Positions 18,294 to 35,035 of a DNA stretch of 51,441 nucleotides are shown piece after piece. Where the stretch lies: positions 1 through 51,441 of the forward strand of contig CAJYJO010000032.1 in NCBI GenBank assembly GCA_913774845.1. The letters run 5' to 3'. The notes beneath the pieces were generated by a model. The model was not told where the DNA came from and made no database searches. It saw only the letters and a list, made by a program, of their open reading frames with translations. This DNA is from an uncultured Microbacterium sp. GTDB taxonomy: Bacteria > Actinomycetota > Actinomycetes > Actinomycetales > Microbacteriaceae. Numbering within the stretch: the stretch's first letter is position 1; each line of letters starts with the position of its first letter. A program made the position numbers and the translations under genes.

Positions 18294-19361
18294 ATGACCC
18301 CCGAATCCCCCGTCCCCTACCGCCTCACGCGTATCGGGGTGGTGATGACCCCCGAGCCCGGCAACGCCGACGAGGCCGAGGGCGTGCTCAACCCGGCATC
18401 CGGCCGCGGACCCGACGGCCGGCTGTACCTGCTGCCCCGCCTCGTCGCCGAGGGCAACGTCTCACGCGTGGGGCTGGCCCGCGTCGTCGTCGAGGACGGC
18501 GTGCCCGTCGCGGTCGAGCGCGAGGGCGTGGTGCTGCAGCCCGACCGCGGCTGGGAGCGCGGCGTCGGCAACGCCGGCACCGAGGATCCCCGCACCACGT
18601 GGGTCGAGGCGCTCGGCCTGCACGTCATGACGTACGTGGCGTACGGCCCACTCGGTCCGCGTACCGCGGTGGCCGTCTCGCAGGACCTCCGCGAATGGCG
18701 GCGCCTGGGACCGGTGCTCTTCCGGTACCAGGACGACCTCGACATGGATCTCAACCTCTTCCACAACAAGGACACGGTCTTCTTCCCCGAGCCGGTCACG
18801 GCGCCCGACGGCACCGAGGCCTTCGCGGTCCTGCACCGCCCCATGTGGGACATCGGCGAGACCAAGCCCGGTCAGGGCGTGCGGGTACCGGCCGGCGTCG
18901 ACGACGAGCGGCAGTCGATCTGGATCAGTTATGTGCCCGTGGCATCCGTCCGCGAAGACCTCGCGAATCTCGTGCTCTGGGAGCAGCACCGCTTCGTGGC
19001 GGGTCCGCAGTTCCCGTTCGAGGAGGTCAAGATCGGCGGTGGGCCGCCCCCGCTGCGCATCCCCGAGGGCTGGCTCGTGCTGCACCACGGCGTGACCGGC
19101 ATGATCGACAGCGCGTTCTCGCAGCAGCAGAAGGTCAACTACGCCGCGGGAGCCCTGATCCTGGATGCCGCCGATCCCAGCCGCGTGATCGCCCGCACGC
19201 CCGAACCGCTGCTGGCACCCGAGACCGACGACGAGCGCAGTGGCATCGTGCCGAACGTCGTGTTCCCCACCGCGATCGAGGAGATCGACGGACGCCACTT
19301 CGTCTTCTACGGCATGGCCGACAGCAAGATCGGCGTCGCGCTGCTGGAGCGTACCGACTGA
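18294..19361 (+). CDS. Glycoside hydrolase family 130 protein (likely beta-mannoside phosphorylase)
   Basis: 355 residues, no signal peptide, so it acts in the cytoplasm on what the importer delivers. The five-bladed propeller of GH130 is indicated by GVLNPASGRGPDGRLYLLPR, NAGTEDPRTTW, FHNKDTVFFPE and PFEEVKIGGGPPP. Characterised GH130 enzymes phosphorolyse beta-1,4- or beta-1,2-linked mannosides, while a subgroup hydrolyses. Here phosphorolysis to mannose-1-phosphate is likely but not proven. Two ATGs compete: 18288 sits 2 nt after AAAGG, 18294 sits at a proper distance from it, so 18294 is chosen. Context: LacI, importer, secreted glycosidase-like partner. Confidence 0.9.
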   Translation: MTPESPVPYRLTRIGVVMTPEPGNADEAEGVLNPASGRGPDGRLYLLPRLVAEGNVSRVGLARVVVEDGVPVAVEREGVVLQPDRGWERGVGNAGTEDPRTTWVEALGLHVMTYVAYGPLGPRTAVAVSQDLREWRRLGPVLFRYQDDLDMDLNLFHNKDTVFFPEPVTAPDGTEAFAVLHRPMWDIGETKPGQGVRVPAGVDDERQSIWISYVPVASVREDLANLVLWEQHRFVAGPQFPFEEVKIGGGPPPLRIPEGWLVLHHGVTGMIDSAFSQQQKVNYAAGALILDAADPSRVIARTPEPLLAPETDDERSGIVPNVVFPTAIEEIDGRHFVFYGMADSKIGVALLERTD

Positions 19362-24002: not shown

Positions 24003-25862
24003 ATGACCAGCTCTCCGCCCTCAGCCCGCCTCTCCACGCCACGCGCTCTCGCGCGCCTGCTGCCCATCGCGCGTCCCGTGCTGCCGCGACTCATCGCCGG
24101 CGCCGTCACCGCGCTCGTCGCGAGCCTGCTTGCCCTGGCGATCCCCCTCGTGCTCGAGCAGATCGTCGCCGGCCCGATCGCGTCCCTCGACCCCGCCGCT
24201 CTCGTGTGGGGCTCGCTCGCGGTGCTCGGCCTCGGCCTCGCCGAAGCCGCGATGGTGTGGCTGCGCCGCTGGTTCGTCCTCGCGCCGGCGACCAAGGTCG
24301 AGTACGACCTGCGGCAGTCGTTCTACTCGCGTCTGCAGCGCCTGCCGGTCGCCTTCCACGACCGCTGGCAGTCGGGCCAGTTGCTCTCGCGCATGATGCA
24401 GGACATCAGCATGCTCCGCCGGTGGCTTGCCTTCGGCGTGATCCTGCTCGTCGTCAACCTCCTCACGATCGTGATCGGCGCTGTGCTGCTGTTCCGCTGG
24501 CACTGGCTGCTCGGGGCGCTGTTCCTCGCGACGTCGGCGCCGGTGATCTACGTCGGCTTCCGCTTCGAGAAGCGCTACGGCGCTCTGACGCGTCAGAGCC
24601 AGGACCAGGCGGGCGACCTCGCCACCTCCGTCGAGGAGAGCGTCCACGGCATCCGCGTTCTCAAGGCCTTCGGTCGCGGCGCGCACGCGCTGAAGAAGTT
24701 CACCCGTCAGGCCGAGTCACTGCGCGAGACCGAGATCGACAAGGCCCGGGCGATCGGATGGATCTGGTTCTGGCTCGTGCTGCTGCCCGACATCGCCTTC
24801 GCGGTATGCCTCGGCGCCGGCATCGTGCTCACCCAGCTCGGGCAGCTCCAGGTGGCCGAGCTCGTCGCCTTCTTCGCGATGGCGACTGTGCTGCGCTGGC
24901 CGATGGAGTCCATCGGCTTCCTCTTCTCGTTCCTCCTCGACGCCCGGACTGCGACCGACCGCATCTTCGAGGTGTTCGACGAGCAGAACACGATCGTCGA
25001 CCCCGAGAACCCGCGCACGATCGCCCAGCCGCGCGGCGAGCTCGCCTTCGAGGACGCGCACTTCCGATACCAGGATGCCGCTGACACCGAGCGCGACCTG
25101 CTCGACGGCGTCGACCTGGTGCTGCGTCCCGGCGAGACGATGGCCCTCGTCGGTCTGACCGGCTCGGGGAAGACCACTCTCACGACCCTTCCCGGTCGTC
25201 TCTACGACGTCACGGCCGGCCGCGTGCTCCTGGACGGCGTCGACGTGCGCGACCTGAGCCTGGCGGAGCTGCGCCGTCACGTCGGCATGGCGTTCGAGGA
25301 CGCCACGCTGTTCTCCCAGACCGTGCGCGACAACGTCCTGCTGGGTCGTGAGGACCTCGAACCCGGGTCGCCCGATGCGGAGGAGATCCTCCGCGAAGCG
25401 CTCCAGGTCGCCCAGGCGCACTTCGTGTACGACCTGCCCGACGGCCTCGACACCGTCATCGGGGAGGAGGGGCTCAGCCTTTCGGGCGGCCAGCGTCAGC
25501 GTCTCGCTCTCGCGCGCGCGGTGGCCGCGCGTCCGGCGGTGCTCGTGCTCGACGACCCGCTCTCCGCGCTCGACGTCGACACCGAAGCCCTCGTGGAAGA
25601 CGCGCTCCGCGAGGTGCTGAGCGAGACGACCGCGCTCGTCGTCGCGCACCGTCCGTCGACCGTCACCCTCGCCGACCGGGTCGCACTGCTGGAGGACGGC
25701 CGGATCACCGCGGTCGGCACCCATTCCGATCTGCTGCGCGACAGCGCGCACTACCGCTACGTCATCTCGAGCCTCGAAGAGGCCGAGCGGCAGGCGCGCA
25801 CGGGGGCGATCCCCGTCATCGCCGACGACGAGGCCCTCACCGAGAAGGAGGCGACCCGATGA
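24003..25862 (+). CDS. Heterodimeric ABC exporter subunit 1 (permease-ATPase fusion, degenerate Walker B)
   Basis: 619 residues: six membrane segments (about 15-310), then the ATPase domain. Walker [10 protein letters not shown] with Lys390, signature LSGGQ around 493-497, Walker [12 protein letters not shown] with Asp518 where the catalytic Glu normally stands, and H-loop VVAHRPST. The Glu-to-Asp change marks the degenerate half of an asymmetric exporter such as TM287/288 or BmrCD. The stop overlaps the start of the second subunit (ATGA). Substrate unknown: drugs, lipids and peptides are all possible. Confidence 0.93.
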
Positions 25863-27676
25863 CCACCGCGACCGTCTCCGGTACGAGCGGCGAAGACCGC
25901 TCCGACTACACCCGCGAAGAGAGCCGCGCGATCCGTCAGCGCTCGCTGCGCCTGCTCGCCTCGCTCGTGTCGCCCCTGCGCTGGCAGCTCGTGCTCGCGG
26001 CCGCCGTGCTCGTCGTGTCGACCGCGCTGCGCGTCGCCGGCCCGGCGCTCATTGCGTTCGGCATCGACAACGCCCTGCCCGCGGTCATCGAACGCAGCGA
26101 CTGGATGCCGACGATCGGCGTCGTCGGCATCTACCTGCTCGCGGGAATCGGTGGCGCGGTGCTGATCGGCTGGTACGTCGTCGTGGCGGCGCGATTGACG
26201 CAGGCGGTCATGCTCGACCTGCGCAAGCGCATCTTCCTGCACACGCAGAAGCTCAGCCTCGAGTTCCACGAGTCCTACACCTCGGGGCGCATCATCTCGC
26301 GGCAGACCAGTGACCTCGACACCATCCGCGAGCTGCTCGACGGCGGTCTGAACGAGCTCGTCTCGGGGGTGCTCTACGGTCTGTTCACCCTCGGCGCGCT
26401 CTTCCTCATCGACTGGCAGTCGGGGCTCATCCTGACCGTCATGGGCATCCCGATGTACCTGCTCATGCGGTGGTTCTACACGCGCTCGCAGATCATCTAC
26501 CGCGAGTCGCGCGTCATCAGCGCGCAGGTGATCGTGAAGTTCGTCGAGACCATGACCGGCGTCCGCGCGGTCAAGGCGTTCCGTAAGGAACCGCGCAACG
26601 ACGAGGAGTTCGGCGCGCTCGCCGGGGCCTACCGCGACGTGAACATGCGATCGATCAAGCTGTTCGGCACCTTCGAGCCCGGCATCATGGCGGTGGCCGC
26701 GGTGTCGGTCGCCGTCGTGCTGCTCTGGGGCGGCGGCCGTGTCATCGCCGGGCCGCTCGAGATCGGTGTGCTGACGGCGGCGGTACTGTACGTGCGCAAC
26801 TTCTTCTCACCGCTGCAGGAGGTCGCGTTCTTCCTGAACTCGTATCAGTCCGCCACGGCGGCGCTCGAGAAGGTGTCGGGCGTCCTCGAGGAGGAGCCGA
26901 CCGTCCCCGACCCCACCGACCCGGTCGACCTGTGGTCGGCGAAGGGCCACGTCCGTTTCGACGACGTCACGTTCGGCTACTCCGAGGACCGCGTCATCCT
27001 GCCGCACTTCTCCCTCGACCTGCCCGCGGGGCAGACGGTGGCGCTGGTGGGCACGACAGGGGCCGGCAAGTCGACGCTCGCGAAGCTCGTCTCGCGCTTC
27101 TACGACCCGTCGAAGGGTGCCGTCACCCTCGACGACGTCGACCTGCGCCGCCTGCACCCGAAGGATCTCCGCCGGGCCATCGTGATGGTCACCCAGGAGG
27201 CCTACCTGTTCAGCGGCACGGTCGCCGACAACATCGCACTCGGTAAGCCCGACGCGACGATGGACGAGATCCGCGCCGCCGCGCGAGCGGTGGGGGCCGA
27301 CGGCTTCATCCAGAAGCTGCCCGACGGGTACGACACCGACGTCAACAAGCGCGGCGGTCGCGTCTCGGCCGGACAGCGCCAGCTGATCTCGTTCGCGCGC
27401 GCGTTCCTCGCCGACCCGGCGGTGCTCATCCTCGACGAGGCGACCGCGTCGCTCGATATTCCGAGCGAACGCCTCATCCAGGAGGCGCTGCAGACGCTCC
27501 TCGCCGACCGCACCGCGATCATCATCGCCCACCGCCTGTCGACGGTGGCGATCGCCGATCGCGTGCTCGTCATGGAGCACGGCCGCATCATCGAGGACGA
27601 CACCCCCGCCGCCCTCATCGCAGGCACGGGCAAGTTCGCCCAGTTGCACGCCGCCTGGCGCGAGTCGCTGGTCTGA
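25859..27676 (+). CDS. Heterodimeric ABC exporter subunit 2 (catalytic Walker B)
   Basis: 605 residues: six membrane segments (about 45-335), ATPase domain with Walker [10 protein letters not shown] (Lys404), a deviant signature VSAGQ (about 502-506), canonical Walker [12 protein letters not shown] with Glu527, and H-loop IIAHRLST. The deviant signature pairs across the dimer with the deviant Walker B of subunit 1, so the two defects fall in the same ATP site while the other site is intact. A strong hairpin follows 4 nt after the stop. Confidence 0.94.
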
Positions 27677-27680
27677 CATC

Positions 27681-27718
27681 GGATGCCACGTCCCCCCCCG
27701 CGGGGGTGCGTGGCATCC
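27681..27718 (+). terminator. Terminator after the ABC exporter operon
   Basis: 10-bp arms GGATGCCACG (27681-27690) and CGTGGCATCC (27709-27718) around an inner C-run/G-run pairing. The arms are built on the genome's abundant GGATGCC word. Confidence 0.8.
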
Positions 27719-27775
27719 GTGCTTCTGCCGGCCGACCGAGCGCCGCCGCCCGGTCGGCAACGAATGAGGACGAGT

Positions 27776-27820
27776 GCAACAGATTCGGATGCGGTCGTGG
27801 CTTTGATCCGAATCCGTTGC
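27776..27820. repeat. AACAGATTCGGAT palindrome 1
   Basis: Arms GCAACAGATTCGGAT (27776-27790) and ATCCGAATCCGTTGC (27806-27820), one mismatch. A further inverted core CCGAATCTGTT lies at 27827. The 354-bp gap 27677-28030 holds only the terminator and these palindromes. Confidence 0.8.
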
Positions 27821-27932
27821 TACACGCCGAATCTGTTCGCATGCGTCGGGGCTGATCCCGGCCGCCGCGGAGCGGGGTGGGCGTGCTCCGCTTCGCGCGG
27901 CCGCAGGCCGCGCGGGCAACAGATCCGGAGTT

Positions 27933-27981
27933 GCGCAACAGATTCGGATCTGCAGACGGCATGCGTCCGAATCTGTTGCGC
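27933..27981. repeat. AACAGATTCGGAT palindrome 2
   Basis: Perfect 16-bp arms GCGCAACAGATTCGGA (27933-27948) and TCCGAATCTGTTGCGC (27966-27981), loop 17 nt. A third diverged core (GCAACAGATCCGGA) precedes it at 27916. The outer ends 27757-27792 and 27966-27998 are also imperfect inverted repeats of about 33 bp, enclosing the whole block. Confidence 0.85.
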
Positions 27982-28030
27982 TGATCCGCATTCATTGACC
28001 CACGCGAAACGGCGGGATGCCGCTTCCCGG

Positions 28031-28867
28031 TCATCTCGCGAGATGCAGCCCCTGAGCGATCACGGTCGTGATCGCGCGCTCCACGCCGGCCCAGTCCGTC
28101 ACCACGTCGCGATAGCTGAATCGCAGGACGGTGTAGCCGCGAGCGATCAGTTCGCGATCGTGGGCGAGGTCGCGGTGGCGGTCTTGAGGGGTCGAGTGAT
28201 AGGCGAAACCGTCGAGCTGGACGACGAGACGGTCACCGATCAGAACGTCGACGCGGTGCCCGGCGATGAGCACCTGCTGGCGCACCAATACGCCCCAGGG
28301 GGTCAGGCGCACCACGAAGATCGTCTCGAGTCCGGAGTCCGACTGTCCCGTTGCGGTAGAGGCCAGTCGCTTCGACGCGGGAGTCCGCCATGACATCTTC
28401 GCGACGGCATCGGGGTGCAGGCGTTCGTGGCGCAGAGCCGATTCCCACACGATCAGGGCCTGCTCGAACGGAAGACAGCTCGCGACGTGCTCGAGACAGT
28501 CGGGAACCGACTCGACGAGGTGGTGGGCGGGTAGCGGCACGAGAGGAGTCGACCAGTGCGTGACGACGTCGGCGCGCGGAGCCTGGCTGTCACGCTTCAC
28601 GGCGACGTGTAGCGACGCACCGACTCCCTCGGGGATCCACCAGCCACGCAACGAGGCGGCGCTGACACACGCGAGCCGGCCGGAAGCCCGGGCGGCACCG
28701 ACGAGAGCGGCGGGGGCGTTCTCCGTCGCAACCCAGTAGCGCTTGACCCGGCCGACCTCGCCCCGCGTGATGGTTGCGCGCAGCCGACTGGCCGGGATGC
28801 CGGCATCCAGGATCTGCTGACGGTGCACGATGCCGCCGCGCGCTCTCACCCACTCGGCGATGTCCAT
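28031..28867 (-). CDS. AbiEi-type antitoxin N-terminal domain plus DUF559 nuclease-like protein
   Basis: 278 residues. Residues 1-60 (WVRARGGIVHRQQILDAGIP, then SRLRATITRGEVGRVKRYW in outline) form the winged helix found in AbiEi-family antitoxins. The C-terminus (about 185-278) is DUF559, a Vsr-like restriction-endonuclease fold: HRVDVLIGDRLVVQLDG, with Asp and Gln/Asp as metal-site candidates, then HDRELIARGYTVLRFSYRDV. Such proteins are common in actinobacteria, often in many copies, and their role is unknown; there is no adjacent AbiEii toxin gene here. Palindromes of one family lie on both sides (27776-27981 and 28966-29048). CAGGGT lies 6 nt before the ATG. Confidence 0.87.
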   Translation of the reverse strand: MDIAEWVRARGGIVHRQQILDAGIPASRLRATITRGEVGRVKRYWVATENAPAALVGAARASGRLACVSAASLRGWWIPEGVGASLHVAVKRDSQAPRADVVTHWSTPLVPLPAHHLVESVPDCLEHVASCLPFEQALIVWESALRHERLHPDAVAKMSWRTPASKRLASTATGQSDSGLETIFVVRLTPWGVLVRQQVLIAGHRVDVLIGDRLVVQLDGFAYHSTPQDRHRDLAHDRELIARGYTVLRFSYRDVVTDWAGVERAITTVIAQGLHLAR

Positions 28868-28965
28868 GGGCCCACCCTGCTCCTCCGGGCGGAGGAGGAT
28901 GTGCCGAGCCGGGGCAGATGTGCAGGGGACAGCCGAAACGCATCGTGGGGAGGAGGGGTGGCTAC

Positions 28966-29048
28966 GCAACAGAATCGGATCGCTGCAACGGATGCGGACG
29001 AGGGGGGCGGAGCGGGCCGAATCTGTTGCATGGATCCGAATCTGCTGC
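28966..29048. repeat. AACAGATTCGGAT palindrome 3 (double)
   Basis: Two head-to-tail cores (GCAACAGAATCGGAT at 28966, CAACGGATGCGGA at 28986) face two inverted cores (CCGAATCTGTTG at 29017, GATCCGAATCTGCTG at 29033). The 35-bp arms match at about 27 positions. It lies about 100 bp upstream of the AbiEi/DUF559 start and downstream of the GNAT gene. Confidence 0.85.
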
Positions 29049-29078: not shown

Positions 29079-29531
29079 CTACACCCGCACGCGGGCGACG
29101 ACCTCGCCGTACTCCGTCTCGCCGACGGGCTCGAAGCCCACGCGCTGGAAGAACGCCTCGGGACCGCCGACGCCGGGTTCATAAATGACGTCGACGTGGT
29201 CCATTCCGCGGCCGCGGGCCTCTTCGAGCACGGCGGCGATGGCGTAGCTGCCGACGCCGCGGCCTTGCTCGTCGGCGTCGACGTTGATGCGCCACAGGAC
29301 GGAACGGAAGTGCTCCTCGTGCGCGTCGGGGTCGAAGTTCGCGCTGACGAAGCCGACGACCTCGTCGCCGTCGAGCACGACGCGCTGCCACGAGGTTTGC
29401 GGATTGCTCACCGTGGCGGCGATGCCGTAGCTGATCGGAGCGAGGAACTGCTCCTGCCCGGGCTTGAGAGACAGGGTGTTCACGGCCACGATCGTGGCGG
29501 CGGACAGTTCGACGAGACGCAGGTCAGCCAT
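29079..29531 (-). CDS. GNAT-family N-acetyltransferase
   Basis: 150 residues, one GNAT domain. Acetyl-CoA pyrophosphate loop in [20 protein letters not shown] (Q-x-x-G-x-G/A form), beta-4 strand [13 protein letters not shown] before it, and the C-terminal [14 protein letters not shown]. Transfers acetyl to an amine; the acceptor is not predictable. TAGCCT stands exactly 6 nt before the ATG, suggesting a leaderless message. Confidence 0.92.
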
Positions 29532-32158: not shown

Positions 32159-33559
32159 TCAGTAGTGGACCGAGACCTCGGTGCCGCGGTAGGCCCAGTC
32201 GTACAGCTCTTTGGCCTGGGGGATCGTCATGTTGATGCAGCCGTGGCTCATCGGCGTGCCGAAGTTGTTGTGCCAGTAGGTGCCGTGGAAGCCCTCGTCG
32301 CCGTTGAAGTACGCCACCCAGGGGACGTCCTTCGTGCAGTAGTCGTACCCGGGGACGCAGCCCATGTCTTGCATGGCCGTCTTCCAGCCGATGCGGAAGT
32401 TGCCCGTGTGGGTGGCGTGGTCGCCCGCGCCCGACGAGATCGTGTAGGTGCGGTACACCTCGCCGTTCTGCCAGAGCGTCGTGGTCTGCGTGCTGAGGTT
32501 GACGTCGATGCGCCGCTCGGTCTTGGTGGTGTCGAACGGGGTCTCGGTAACGGGGAGGGCGTAGCGGCCGTTGCCTTCGGCGAGCTGCGCGGCGAAGGCA
32601 ACGGCGACCCCGCTCGTGTCGCCGAGCGCGCGGCCGGTCTGCCCTTCGGTGATCGCCTTGATGACTTCTCCGCCGGTGTCGACGATCACGTCGGCGTTGA
32701 CCGCGCCGCGATCGACCTGCCCGGCGAGACCCGAGACGGCCTGCTGGATCGCGGACTGGTCGGCCGAGATCGCGAACTCGCCCTTGCCGTCGGGGGTGAC
32801 GGTGAGCCACGAGGCGGCGGTGGCGCGGTCGACGGCGACCGTGCGCTCGTCGCCGACGTAGAAGCCGATGCTGTCGAGGATGCCGTTGAGGTTCGCGACG
32901 GCGGCGCTCGCTTCGTCGGTGGTGACGGGAGCCTCGACGGGGACCAGGGCGGCCTGGACCGTCGTGGATGCCGTGCCCGAGTCGAACGCCGTCTGCAGCG
33001 CGGCGGTCACGGCGGCGACGTCGATGCCCTCACCGTCTTCGGACGGGGTGGTGACGTAGGCCTGCGACCCGGCGTCGTACGCGATGGTGGCATCGACCGG
33101 GGCGCGGTAGGTGCCGGGAGCCAGCTCGCGCAGAGCTGCGGCGGCCTCGGCGGCGTCGACCTGCACCTCGACGCCCGTGCCCTCGGGGAACCAGGACGCG
33201 GGCTTCCACATGGGGTTGTCGGCGAAGGCCTTGTCGGCCAGGGCTGCGGCGTCGACCGTGGCGCCCAACTCGGCGCCGGTCACGGTGACCTCGCCCGCAG
33301 GGCTGTCGACCGTCACGGTGGTCTGCGCCAGGCGGGAGTCGATCGCCTGCGCCGCGGCTCCGGCGGTCAGCCCGCCGATCTGGACGCCGGCGACGGAGGC
33401 GCCGGGCGCGATCAACACGAGCGACGCCGCGATCAGGGCCACCGCGGTCGCGCCCGCCGGGATGCCGATCCACAGGCCGGAGCGGTTCTTCCGCCGGGTC
33501 GGCTCGGTCGGTGCCCACGCGTACGTCGCGCCGTCGGTGCCGGGTGCGCCGTCGGTCAT
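32159..33559 (-). CDS. L,D-transpeptidase with peptidoglycan-binding repeats
   Basis: 466 residues: cytoplasmic Pro/Arg stretch (1-35), one membrane helix (about 36-60), two extracellular repeat blocks related to the PG_binding_4/VanW-associated domain (about 60-330), and a C-terminal YkuD catalytic domain with the motif MSHGCINM, nucleophile Cys441, plus upstream HGTYWHNNFG. Makes 3-3 (meso-DAP or equivalent) cross-links or attaches proteins to peptidoglycan, outside the membrane, insensitive to most penicillins. The ATG at 33559 follows a G-run Shine-Dalgarno; a TTG two codons upstream is an unlikely alternative. Confidence 0.94.
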   Translation of the reverse strand: MTDGAPGTDGATYAWAPTEPTRRKNRSGLWIGIPAGATAVALIAASLVLIAPGASVAGVQIGGLTAGAAAQAIDSRLAQTTVTVDSPAGEVTVTGAELGATVDAAALADKAFADNPMWKPASWFPEGTGVEVQVDAAEAAAALRELAPGTYRAPVDATIAYDAGSQAYVTTPSEDGEGIDVAAVTAALQTAFDSGTASTTVQAALVPVEAPVTTDEASAAVANLNGILDSIGFYVGDERTVAVDRATAASWLTVTPDGKGEFAISADQSAIQQAVSGLAGQVDRGAVNADVIVDTGGEVIKAITEGQTGRALGDTSGVAVAFAAQLAEGNGRYALPVTETPFDTTKTERRIDVNLSTQTTTLWQNGEVYRTYTISSGAGDHATHTGNFRIGWKTAMQDMGCVPGYDYCTKDVPWVAYFNGDEGFHGTYWHNNFGTPMSHGCINMTIPQAKELYDWAYRGTEVSVHY

Positions 33560-33670
33560 AGTCAAACCCCCCAGAAGTCAGTCTTCCCATGGTAAGGGGA
33601 GGGTGCCCGGCATGACCGGAGTGAACATCACGGTCTGATCACGTCGGCCTCGCTCAGTGGCCGGATGGGA

Positions 33671-35035
33671 TCAGACCGCGAACACCTTGCCCGGGTTCAG
33701 GATGCCGAGCGGGTCGAAGACCCGGGCGATGTCGCGCTGCAGCCGCCACTGGTCGTCGCCGAGTTCGTCGGCGAGCCAGCGCCGCTTGAGCACCCCGATG
33801 CCGTGCTCGCCGGTGAGGGTGCCCCCCAGCGCGAGCGCCGCGCGGAACAGCTCCTCCGCCGCCTCCCAGACGACCGGCGGGACCTCGGGTCCCTCGAAGA
33901 CGAAGTTGGGGTGGAGGTTGCCGTCACCGGCGTGGGCGACGGCCGGGATGACCAGGCCGAACTCGCGTTCGATGCGGGCGATCTGGTCGAACATGTCGGG
34001 CAGGGCGCTGCGCGGCACCGACACGTCCTCGATGAGCGTGGTGCCGAGGGTCTCCATCGCGGGATGCATCGCGCGACGCACGGCCAGGAGGGCCTCGCCC
34101 TCGGCGGCGTCCGCGGCCACGGCGACCGCGCCGCCCGCCTCGCGGAGCACCCCGGCGATCGCGCGGGCTTCGTCTGCGGCGACGGGGCCGTCGGTCTGGA
34201 TGGTCAGCTGCGCCGCGCCCGCGGGAGGGGCCGGCAGCGACAGCAGACGATGCGCGGCCGCGAGGCTCGTGGCATCCATCAACTCCATGATCGCGGGCTG
34301 CACTCCCGAGGCCGTCACCGCCGCGGAGGCCACGGCGGCGGCGCGGACACCGTCGAACAGTGCGGTGAGGGTGACCCGCTCGCCCTCGACGAGGCGGCGC
34401 AGTTTGAGGGTGGCGCCGACGACGACGCCGAGCGTCCCCTCCGAGCCGATGATGAGCGAGGTCAGATCGAGACCGGTCACGCCCTTCACGCTGCGATGCC
34501 CGAGGTGGAGCAGGCGCCCGTCGGCGAGGACGACGTCGACGCCGAGCACCGCGTCGCGCACGACGCCGTATTTCGCGCAGAGCAGCCCGCCGGCTCCGGT
34601 GGCGATGTTGCCCCCGACGGTCGAGATGGCCCGGCTGGCCGGATCGGGCGCCCACCAGACCCCGTGCGTCTCGAGCTGCGCGTTCAGCTCGGCGTTCAGG
34701 ATGCCGGGCTCCACCACCGCGAGCAGGTCGTCGGGCCGCACCTCGAGCACGCGGTCCATGCCGCGCAGCGAGAGGCTGATCTCGCCGCCGCCGGTGTTGG
34801 CTCCGCCGGCGAGACCCGTGCCGGCTCCGCGGGGGACGACGGGTGTGCGGGTGGCCGTCGCGATGCGCATCACGGTCTGGACGTCGTCGACGGATGCCGC
34901 GTGCACCACCGCCAGCGGGGTCGCCGCCGACGCGTGCCCGGACTTGTCGGCCCGTGCGGCCTCGAGTGCGGTGGGGGAGGTGTCGACGCGCTCGCCGAGT
35001 TCGGAGCGGAGCAGCGCGACGACGTCGGGGGTCAT
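33671..35035 (-). CDS. FAD-linked oxidase, GlcD/D-lactate dehydrogenase-like
   Basis: 454 residues. N-terminal FAD-binding type 4 domain (VPRGAGTGLAGGANTGGGEI, VGGNIATGAGGLLCAKYG, GLDLTSLIIGSEGTLGVV) and the C-terminal cap ending TGEHGIGVLKRRWL and DPLGILNPGKVF. Related enzymes oxidise glycolate, D-lactate or D-2-hydroxyglutarate with the flavin; VAHAGDGNLHPNFVF carries the metal or substrate His residues of the cap. No GlcE/GlcF or LutA partner is adjacent, so a stand-alone D-2-hydroxyacid dehydrogenase is favoured. Starts in the ATGA overlap with the small membrane gene upstream. Confidence 0.93.
   Translation of the reverse strand: MTPDVVALLRSELGERVDTSPTALEAARADKSGHASAATPLAVVHAASVDDVQTVMRIATATRTPVVPRGAGTGLAGGANTGGGEISLSLRGMDRVLEVRPDDLLAVVEPGILNAELNAQLETHGVWWAPDPASRAISTVGGNIATGAGGLLCAKYGVVRDAVLGVDVVLADGRLLHLGHRSVKGVTGLDLTSLIIGSEGTLGVVVGATLKLRRLVEGERVTLTALFDGVRAAAVASAAVTASGVQPAIMELMDATSLAAAHRLLSLPAPPAGAAQLTIQTDGPVAADEARAIAGVLREAGGAVAVAADAAEGEALLAVRRAMHPAMETLGTTLIEDVSVPRSALPDMFDQIARIEREFGLVIPAVAHAGDGNLHPNFVFEGPEVPPVVWEAAEELFRAALALGGTLTGEHGIGVLKRRWLADELGDDQWRLQRDIARVFDPLGILNPGKVFAV

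Follow-up and report, generated by a model that had tools for sequence, protein, structure and literature searches.

The 51,441-base stretch analysed here (the window) is contig 32 of the 3.37 Mb genome of an uncultured Microbacterium sp., and it carries a gene for a putative AbiEi-like and Vsr/DUF559/MTES_1575-like nuclease that is bracketed by arrays of a short palindromic repeat. The gene lies on the minus strand at 28031–28867 and encodes 278 amino acids, with the start codon set by alignment of homologues. Nine matches to the half-site AACAGATTCGGAT with at most two mismatches occur in the window, all at 27778–27977 and 28968–29046 on the two sides of this gene; 0.33 were expected by chance, and nine were reached in none of 100 shuffles. 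Allowing three mismatches raises the count to 12, made up of ten beside the gene (28987 on the plus strand is added) and strays at 18918 and 37445. A first-pass annotation, made from the sequence alone, had described about ten copies of the core clustered on both sides of the gene and none elsewhere. The cluster was confirmed and resolves into three arrays, one upstream and two downstream; the absence elsewhere holds for the window, the two strays apart, but not for the genome.

Arrays consist of two tandem half-sites 19 bp apart and two inverted ones, with a centre of 15–17 bp. The upstream array (28964–29048, unstranded) has half-sites at 28968+, 28987+, 29015− and 29034−, the starts of which are separated by 19, 28 and 19 bases (array score 0.80; DNA hairpin z of −5.2). 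The two downstream arrays, likewise unstranded, hold three clear half-sites each in the same register plus a weak fourth. The one closest to the stop codon spans 27914–27996 (27918+, 27937+, 27965− and weak 27984−; score 0.77; hairpin z of −5.7), and the far one spans 27757–27840 (weak 27759+, identified by eye, 27778+, 27806− and 27825−; hairpin z of −2.2). A search for known structured RNAs returned only Rfam matches far under their gathering scores.

The window protein matched the Pfam family DUF559 above the cut-off (3e-8) and MTES_1575 slightly below it (2.7e-9; 37.4 bits against a cut-off of 38.2). Likeness to these two families (DUF559 and REase_MTES_1575) is general, with both being matched at E ≤ 0.01 by 76 of 76 aligned homologues. 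Domains matched in these homologues were DUF559, MTES_1575 and AbiEi_4, together with a weak PaaX-like match in one member; no transposase or integrase domain was found in Pfam scans of the window protein and the 76 homologues. An AlphaFold model (mean predicted local distance difference test score of 92) suggests an AbiEi-like N-terminal part followed by a nuclease fold with structural matches to both Vsr and I-Bth0305I, and so the predicted structure bears out the AbiEi-like and Vsr-like reading of the first-pass annotation. Residues E181, D207, D219 and H224 are invariant in all 76 aligned homologues. Their correspondence to Vsr residues is one that we presume from an alignment by eye, in which D207 (codon 28247–28249, minus strand) would match the metal-binding aspartate of Vsr. 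Homologues at E ≤ 1e-20 were found in 140 of 149 genomes of the genus, and the closest named relative by nuclease protein is Microbacterium testaceum NBRC 12675 (91% identity).

Arrays recur beside these homologues. A first set of 42 loci comprised 40 homologue loci of the genus (best protein matches), the window, and the second homologue of the window genome. Forty of the 42 had 400 readable bases per side, and in these the longest exact word common to both flanks averaged 17.35 bases, being at least 13 in 30 loci and at least 20 in 10; 499 control placements in the same loci gave a mean of 10.6, with 7.6% at 13 or more and a maximum of 17. The shared words vary by clade, and are direct at some loci and inverted at others. 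When 84 flanks were scanned for array geometries without regard to sequence, all 15 top geometries had a tandem spacing of 19 bp. Array scores of at least 0.62 were reached by 64 of 82 flanks, with a 99th percentile of 0.58 and a maximum of 0.667 in shuffled flanks.

A second set of 80 named loci, 76 of them titled Microbacteriaceae, was taken from a separate collection; some genomes are common to both sets, which are therefore not independent. At a score of 0.6, an array was present upstream in 66 of 79 loci and downstream in 55 of 77. Where both flanks were readable, 51 of 76 loci had arrays on both and 68 of 76 on at least one, compared with 2 of 1,121 control windows. With spacing left free between 12 and 29 bp (shorter half-site, score 0.65), 87 flanks fell at 19 bp and no more than seven at any other value. 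In profiles built on score-selected arrays, a choice that inflates their peaks, upstream arrays end a median of 108 bp before the start codon (quartiles 99–120) and downstream arrays start a median of 20 bp past the stop codon (quartiles 9–35; 122 arrays, both sides counted), and mirror complementarity peaks at 9–13 and 28–32 bases from the array centre and is low in the centre and linkers. The mirror pattern would fit binding half-sites better than one plain hairpin, though single strands can fold.

The same palindromes are dispersed through the genome. With at most three mismatches, the inner inverted pair is found at 11 places in the 3.37 Mb, three at the gene and eight elsewhere, and the reversed control pattern at none. 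At least one dispersed copy, on contig 50 (L009, 5817–5883), has the full four-site layout, its half-sites being 19, 28 and 19 bases apart. Among 48 dispersed sites fetched from seven genomes, 27 lie between convergent genes, 16 between tandem genes and 2 between divergent genes, while 3 are within a called frame; these contexts come from a simple reading-frame caller, by which 45 of the 48 sites are outside called frames.

Dispersed arrays are largely matched to the gene. The best homologue has at least 56% identity in 8 of the 149 genus genomes, and the AACAGATTCGGAT palindrome is present in all eight (57 sites), adjoining the gene in each and standing on both sides of it in the window genome, G080 and G081; the remaining 141 genomes have 12 sites, in seven genomes. 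Of the genomes examined, the CTTCTGAAGGA palindrome brackets the gene in three, G106, G042 and G069, where it has 13, 9 and 9 sites, respectively; the other 146 genomes contribute 6 sites, spread over four of them. Across 67 named loci, half-site similarity tracks protein identity (Mantel Spearman 0.60, p 0.001, ancestry uncontrolled), with a median motif similarity of 0.27–0.38 under 55% protein identity and 0.90–0.93 over 70%. By region, residues 64–172 gave a higher r (0.58) than the winged helix-turn-helix part (0.30), values that are likewise uncontrolled for ancestry and are unused in our argument. Co-occurrence at 68 of 76 loci, co-occurrence among genomes and the Mantel correlation together agree with the proposal that palindromes and gene go together and vary together in relatives.

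Relatives differ in the occupancy of particular sites. The nuclease gene of the window lies between an ABC transporter gene (25859–27676, plus strand) and a GNAT acetyltransferase gene (29079–29531, minus strand), and ten genomes were searched at this slot. In the nine that could be read (all but G009), the gene was present in four, the slot was empty in three (G016, G063 and G007), and G012 and G017 had about 1.2 kb of other sequence in which no nuclease was matched. By eye, the three empty slots have neither gene nor array, so that no solo array is left. An identity filter placed the gene in the ABC/GNAT slot at 38 of 120 loci, a count in which the two sets overlap. At such loci the nuclease has a median identity of 51% to that of the window, compared with 81% for GNAT and 90% for the ABC part; therefore the gene diverges or is replaced much faster than its neighbours. 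In L087 (G006) and L089 (G020) the neighbours are 93–95% identical to the window, the nuclease is 48–50% identical and the array family is different, a pattern that, on these alignments, is one of fast divergence or allele replacement. One dispersed array of the window genome lies between genes that we take to be cofC and cofD. Four relatives were read by eye at this site (G010, G012 and G017 were left out): G006 has a short gap without an array, G016 has no array, two arrays in G020 belong to the family of its own gene, and G009 has an array of another family. G007 has about 2 kb at this site, with a partial palindrome left unassigned.

In a class-wide sample, matches were found in 38 of 246 genomes, and 29 loci were examined besides the window. 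Seven of these, at 41–76% identity to the queries, all have arrays (five from the genus, two from another genus of the family), with a spacing of 19 bp in six and 18 bp in one; some are one-sided. Among more distant homologues, L295, L296, L298, L303 and L305 have no 19-bp arrays, yet their flanks share words of 16–24 bases, possibly reflecting other repeat geometries. The second homologue in the window genome (G000; contig 28, about 32301–33761, L058), at 28–29% identity, is bracketed by its own repeat, the CGAAACTCCTGAGAAAC family, which differs from the window arrays. With at most three mismatches the CGAAACTCCTGAGAAAC repeat occurs 22 times genome-wide, five of them around the L058 gene, and the reversed control gives none; several matches form inverted pairs 63 bases apart. 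Carriage as phage or plasmid cargo was rejected, with tblastn matching one unannotated phage record and five plasmids, all below 60% identity.

Two further features lie close to the arrays. Between the upstream array and the start codon, a pair of boxes on the minus strand (28919–28955), CTCCTCCCCAC at 28945–28955 and CTGCACA at 28919–28925, is conserved in homologues. Across the window and 62 homologue loci, it takes the form of a CTCCTCC(C/A)CA box separated by about 27 nt from a box like TTGTCCACA, which resembles a DnaA box. The first box is present in 86% of these 63 regions against 11% in shuffles, and the pair at a separation of 24–30 nt in 52% against 0.4%, the motifs having been defined after inspection of the same regions. 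The first box is rare beside dispersed arrays (3 of 46 sides) and downstream arrays (2 of 56). A hairpin, GGATGCCACG...CGTGGCATCC, at 27681–27718, 3' of the ABC transporter gene, recurs in the slots that are empty in G016, G063 and G007, and is probably a native terminator rather than part of the array unit.

The closest known counterpart is the repetitive extragenic palindrome (REP) system with its REP-associated tyrosine transposase (RAYT) and REP doublets forming hairpins (REPINs). The RAYT gene is reported to be flanked on both sides by palindromic repeats with copies dispersed extragenically, the repeat is matched to its own gene, and several distinct single-copy genes may occur per genome (PMC3116915, PMC2817692). 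The loci described here are alike in that the gene is bracketed on both sides (51 of 76 loci) by gene-matched palindromes that are also dispersed extragenically, so the RAYT/REP-like arrangement seen in the first-pass annotation stands. The gene is not itself a RAYT, since Pfam finds no transposase and the fold is AbiEi-like and Vsr-like, whereas RAYT is an IS200/IS605-type (HUH single-tyrosine) transposase. The repeat unit also differs, being a ++−− array of four half-sites, and sites number 2–22 per genome and family, whereas REPs are reported usually to exceed 100 copies (PMC2817692).

The N-terminal fold is AbiEi-like, as in AbiE type IV toxin-antitoxin systems, but here it is predicted to be fused to a nuclease, and arrays lie downstream and dispersed as well; the AbiEii (DUF1814) toxin partner was absent from the two window neighbours scanned (ABC transporter and GNAT). 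The catalytic fold resembles those of Vsr and the EDxHD homing endonuclease I-Bth0305I. Unlike the situation with a homing endonuclease, the gene has complete arrays to either side, the empty slots examined have none, and no intron or intein was seen around the gene. A homing insertion is unlikely because the empty slots hold no array; the earlier suggestion of homing, taken in its classical form, gains no support if the arrays are the sites of the enzyme, since they flank the gene and are missing where it is absent. A defence role, also suggested, found little in PADLOC, which gave only weak matches to PDC-S37, a homing-endonuclease model and AbiEi models. Nor was support found for movement of the gene, as there is no close second copy in the window genome and its position is often one and the same slot. 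Overall, the observation in the first-pass annotation was confirmed and its interpretation partly supported.

We favour the reading, to which as a whole, dispersal included, we give a probability of about 0.5, that gene and arrays form one co-evolving pair consisting of a nuclease that binds DNA site-specifically and the palindromes of four half-sites that are cognate to it. Bracketing, fixed geometry, clade-wise matching of gene and array, intergenic dispersal, differences in presence and absence, and conserved active-site positions are all seen in the sequences. Recognition of the arrays by the protein as cognate sites is very probable from this pattern and is the simplest account of the co-evolution; binding, cleavage and mobilisation of the arrays by the protein are what we infer. 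By analogy, the pair would work as REPIN and RAYT do, though its enzyme is unrelated. The AbiEi-like part (residues 1–173) would bind one half-site per protomer, and the distances between half-site cores, roughly 19, 22 and 19 bp or about two turns of the helix, would suit a set of four protomers sharing one DNA face. The Vsr-like domain would then nick or cut the array, or the hairpin formed by the array as a single strand, and repair or replication of the cut DNA would deposit array copies in trans at intergenic positions behind genes, whereas the gene would not be multiplied itself and would keep arrays on both sides. That this trans-dispersal operates in full could, in our judgement, prove right or wrong with equal ease.

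Several results weigh against this reading. Nuclease activity is likely rather than firm because the invariant glutamine Q217 occupies the position of a glutamate in the DUF559 structure 3hrl. Eight of the 76 loci with both flanks readable have no array, and the 22 class-wide loci at 27–37% identity have no 19-bp arrays beyond one borderline flank, even though one of them is from the genus and one more from the family. The CGCGAAACTCGGA pattern of G020 shows weaker co-occurrence, with 7 sites there and 13 more spread over seven other genomes; in three of the latter, G003, G059 and G130, the sequences that bracket a gene are different ones. Shared ancestry alone could make half-site similarity follow protein similarity. 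As to copying, the number of sites is low (2–13 per matching genome). Upstream and downstream arrays share a centre in 4 of 52 loci against 0.2% expected, a count that misses some loci having long shared flank words, and outside the half-sites the two flanking arrays have sequence in common at only a minority of loci. Bases adjoining the half-sites are alike within a genome (untrimmed z of 3.6 to 13.7), and the innermost 7–9 bp of same-genome arrays are barely above shuffled similarity (z of −1.1 to 2.6, six genomes); therefore nothing clearly indicates that whole arrays were recently copied to distant places, an idea that the array centres leave unsupported. No target-site duplication was found by eye. 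Array-less sites and slots do exist in relatives, as the first-pass annotation had led one to look for. In one comparison the absence is not clean: three arrays of G106 have no counterpart in its sister G042 (about 92–95% DNA identity), and the neighbouring sequence has also changed, up to the array edge (L246, L247 and L248 against L321–L323), so these were rejected as clean empty sites.

An alternative is a protein that is mainly a DNA-binding regulator, with the upstream array as its operator, looping to the downstream array repressing the gene, and dispersed arrays being selected sites. AbiEi-family proteins are reported to bind two or four inverted repeats that precede the gene encoding them (PMC3985639, PMC7319586). 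AbiEi acts through inverted repeats to repress its own promoter (PMC3985639), and Rv2827c, a relative from Mycobacterium tuberculosis, binds four such repeats located upstream of its gene (PMC7319586). Because AbiEi-family proteins bind in this way, the upstream array may well be an operator also under the reading that we favour, and its fixed distance from the gene, with conserved half-sites and variable centres as for selected binding sites, is consistent with that role. The operator idea, which the first-pass annotation had raised, can account for the upstream array, whereas the downstream and dispersed ones are beyond it. Against the regulator reading, downstream arrays are almost as frequent as upstream arrays, dispersed arrays lie behind genes with only 2 of 48 in divergent promoter regions, the active-site positions of the nuclease are invariant, and the occupancy of sites varies among relatives. 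A role mainly in regulation is unlikely in our view, though it is the alternative we take most seriously.

A selfish cassette, in which gene and arrays move together through cutting and copying driven by repair, with solo arrays as remnants after gene loss, would explain the near-constant architecture of the unit, its absence as a block from the ABC/GNAT slot in G016, G063 and G007, the diverged homologues with different arrays that fill the slot at L087 and L089 between closely similar neighbours, and the flanks that share 20 or more exact bases in 10 of 40 loci. It is nevertheless improbable. No solo array was retained in the three empty slots; homologues in the same genome are widely different (42–55% identity in eight pairs from six genomes), so no recent gene duplication is seen; the direct or inverted flank words are unlike fixed transposon ends; and the integrase or transposase that might be sought was not found by Pfam. 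Finally, the arrays fold as hairpins and are frequently between convergent genes, as would be ordinary intergenic terminator-like palindromes functionally unrelated to the gene. Bracketing at fixed distances, the 19-bp tandem geometry, clade-matched sequence and genome-level co-occurrence, together with poorly mirrored spacers that a plain hairpin would not explain, speak against such palindromes, and we discarded this highly improbable account on geometry and covariation.

Among the literature matches listed, a scope outside which most subscription papers and bioRxiv lay, no paper linked DUF559/AbiEi genes to flanking palindromes. We tentatively propose a new repeat system in which an AbiEi-Vsr fusion nuclease would recognise, spread and police its own family of palindromic four-site arrays, with several independent versions per genome and with neighbouring species holding different pairs in the same slot through fast specificity change; the RAYT-REPIN arrangement would then have arisen a second time, independently. 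DUF559/MTES_1575 proteins with an AbiEi-like front are abundant and of unassigned function, and they gain a candidate DNA target that can be read from sequence. This candidate target yields dozens of natural enzyme-site pairs with differing specificities that may be tested together. If the arrays are not mobilised, the protein would be a nuclease that keeps chromosomal binding sites behind genes, for which there is no precedent among the literature matches listed. If they are mobilised, this would be a RAYT-like system with an unrelated nuclease, and the spread of short palindromes could be tested in a second independent case.
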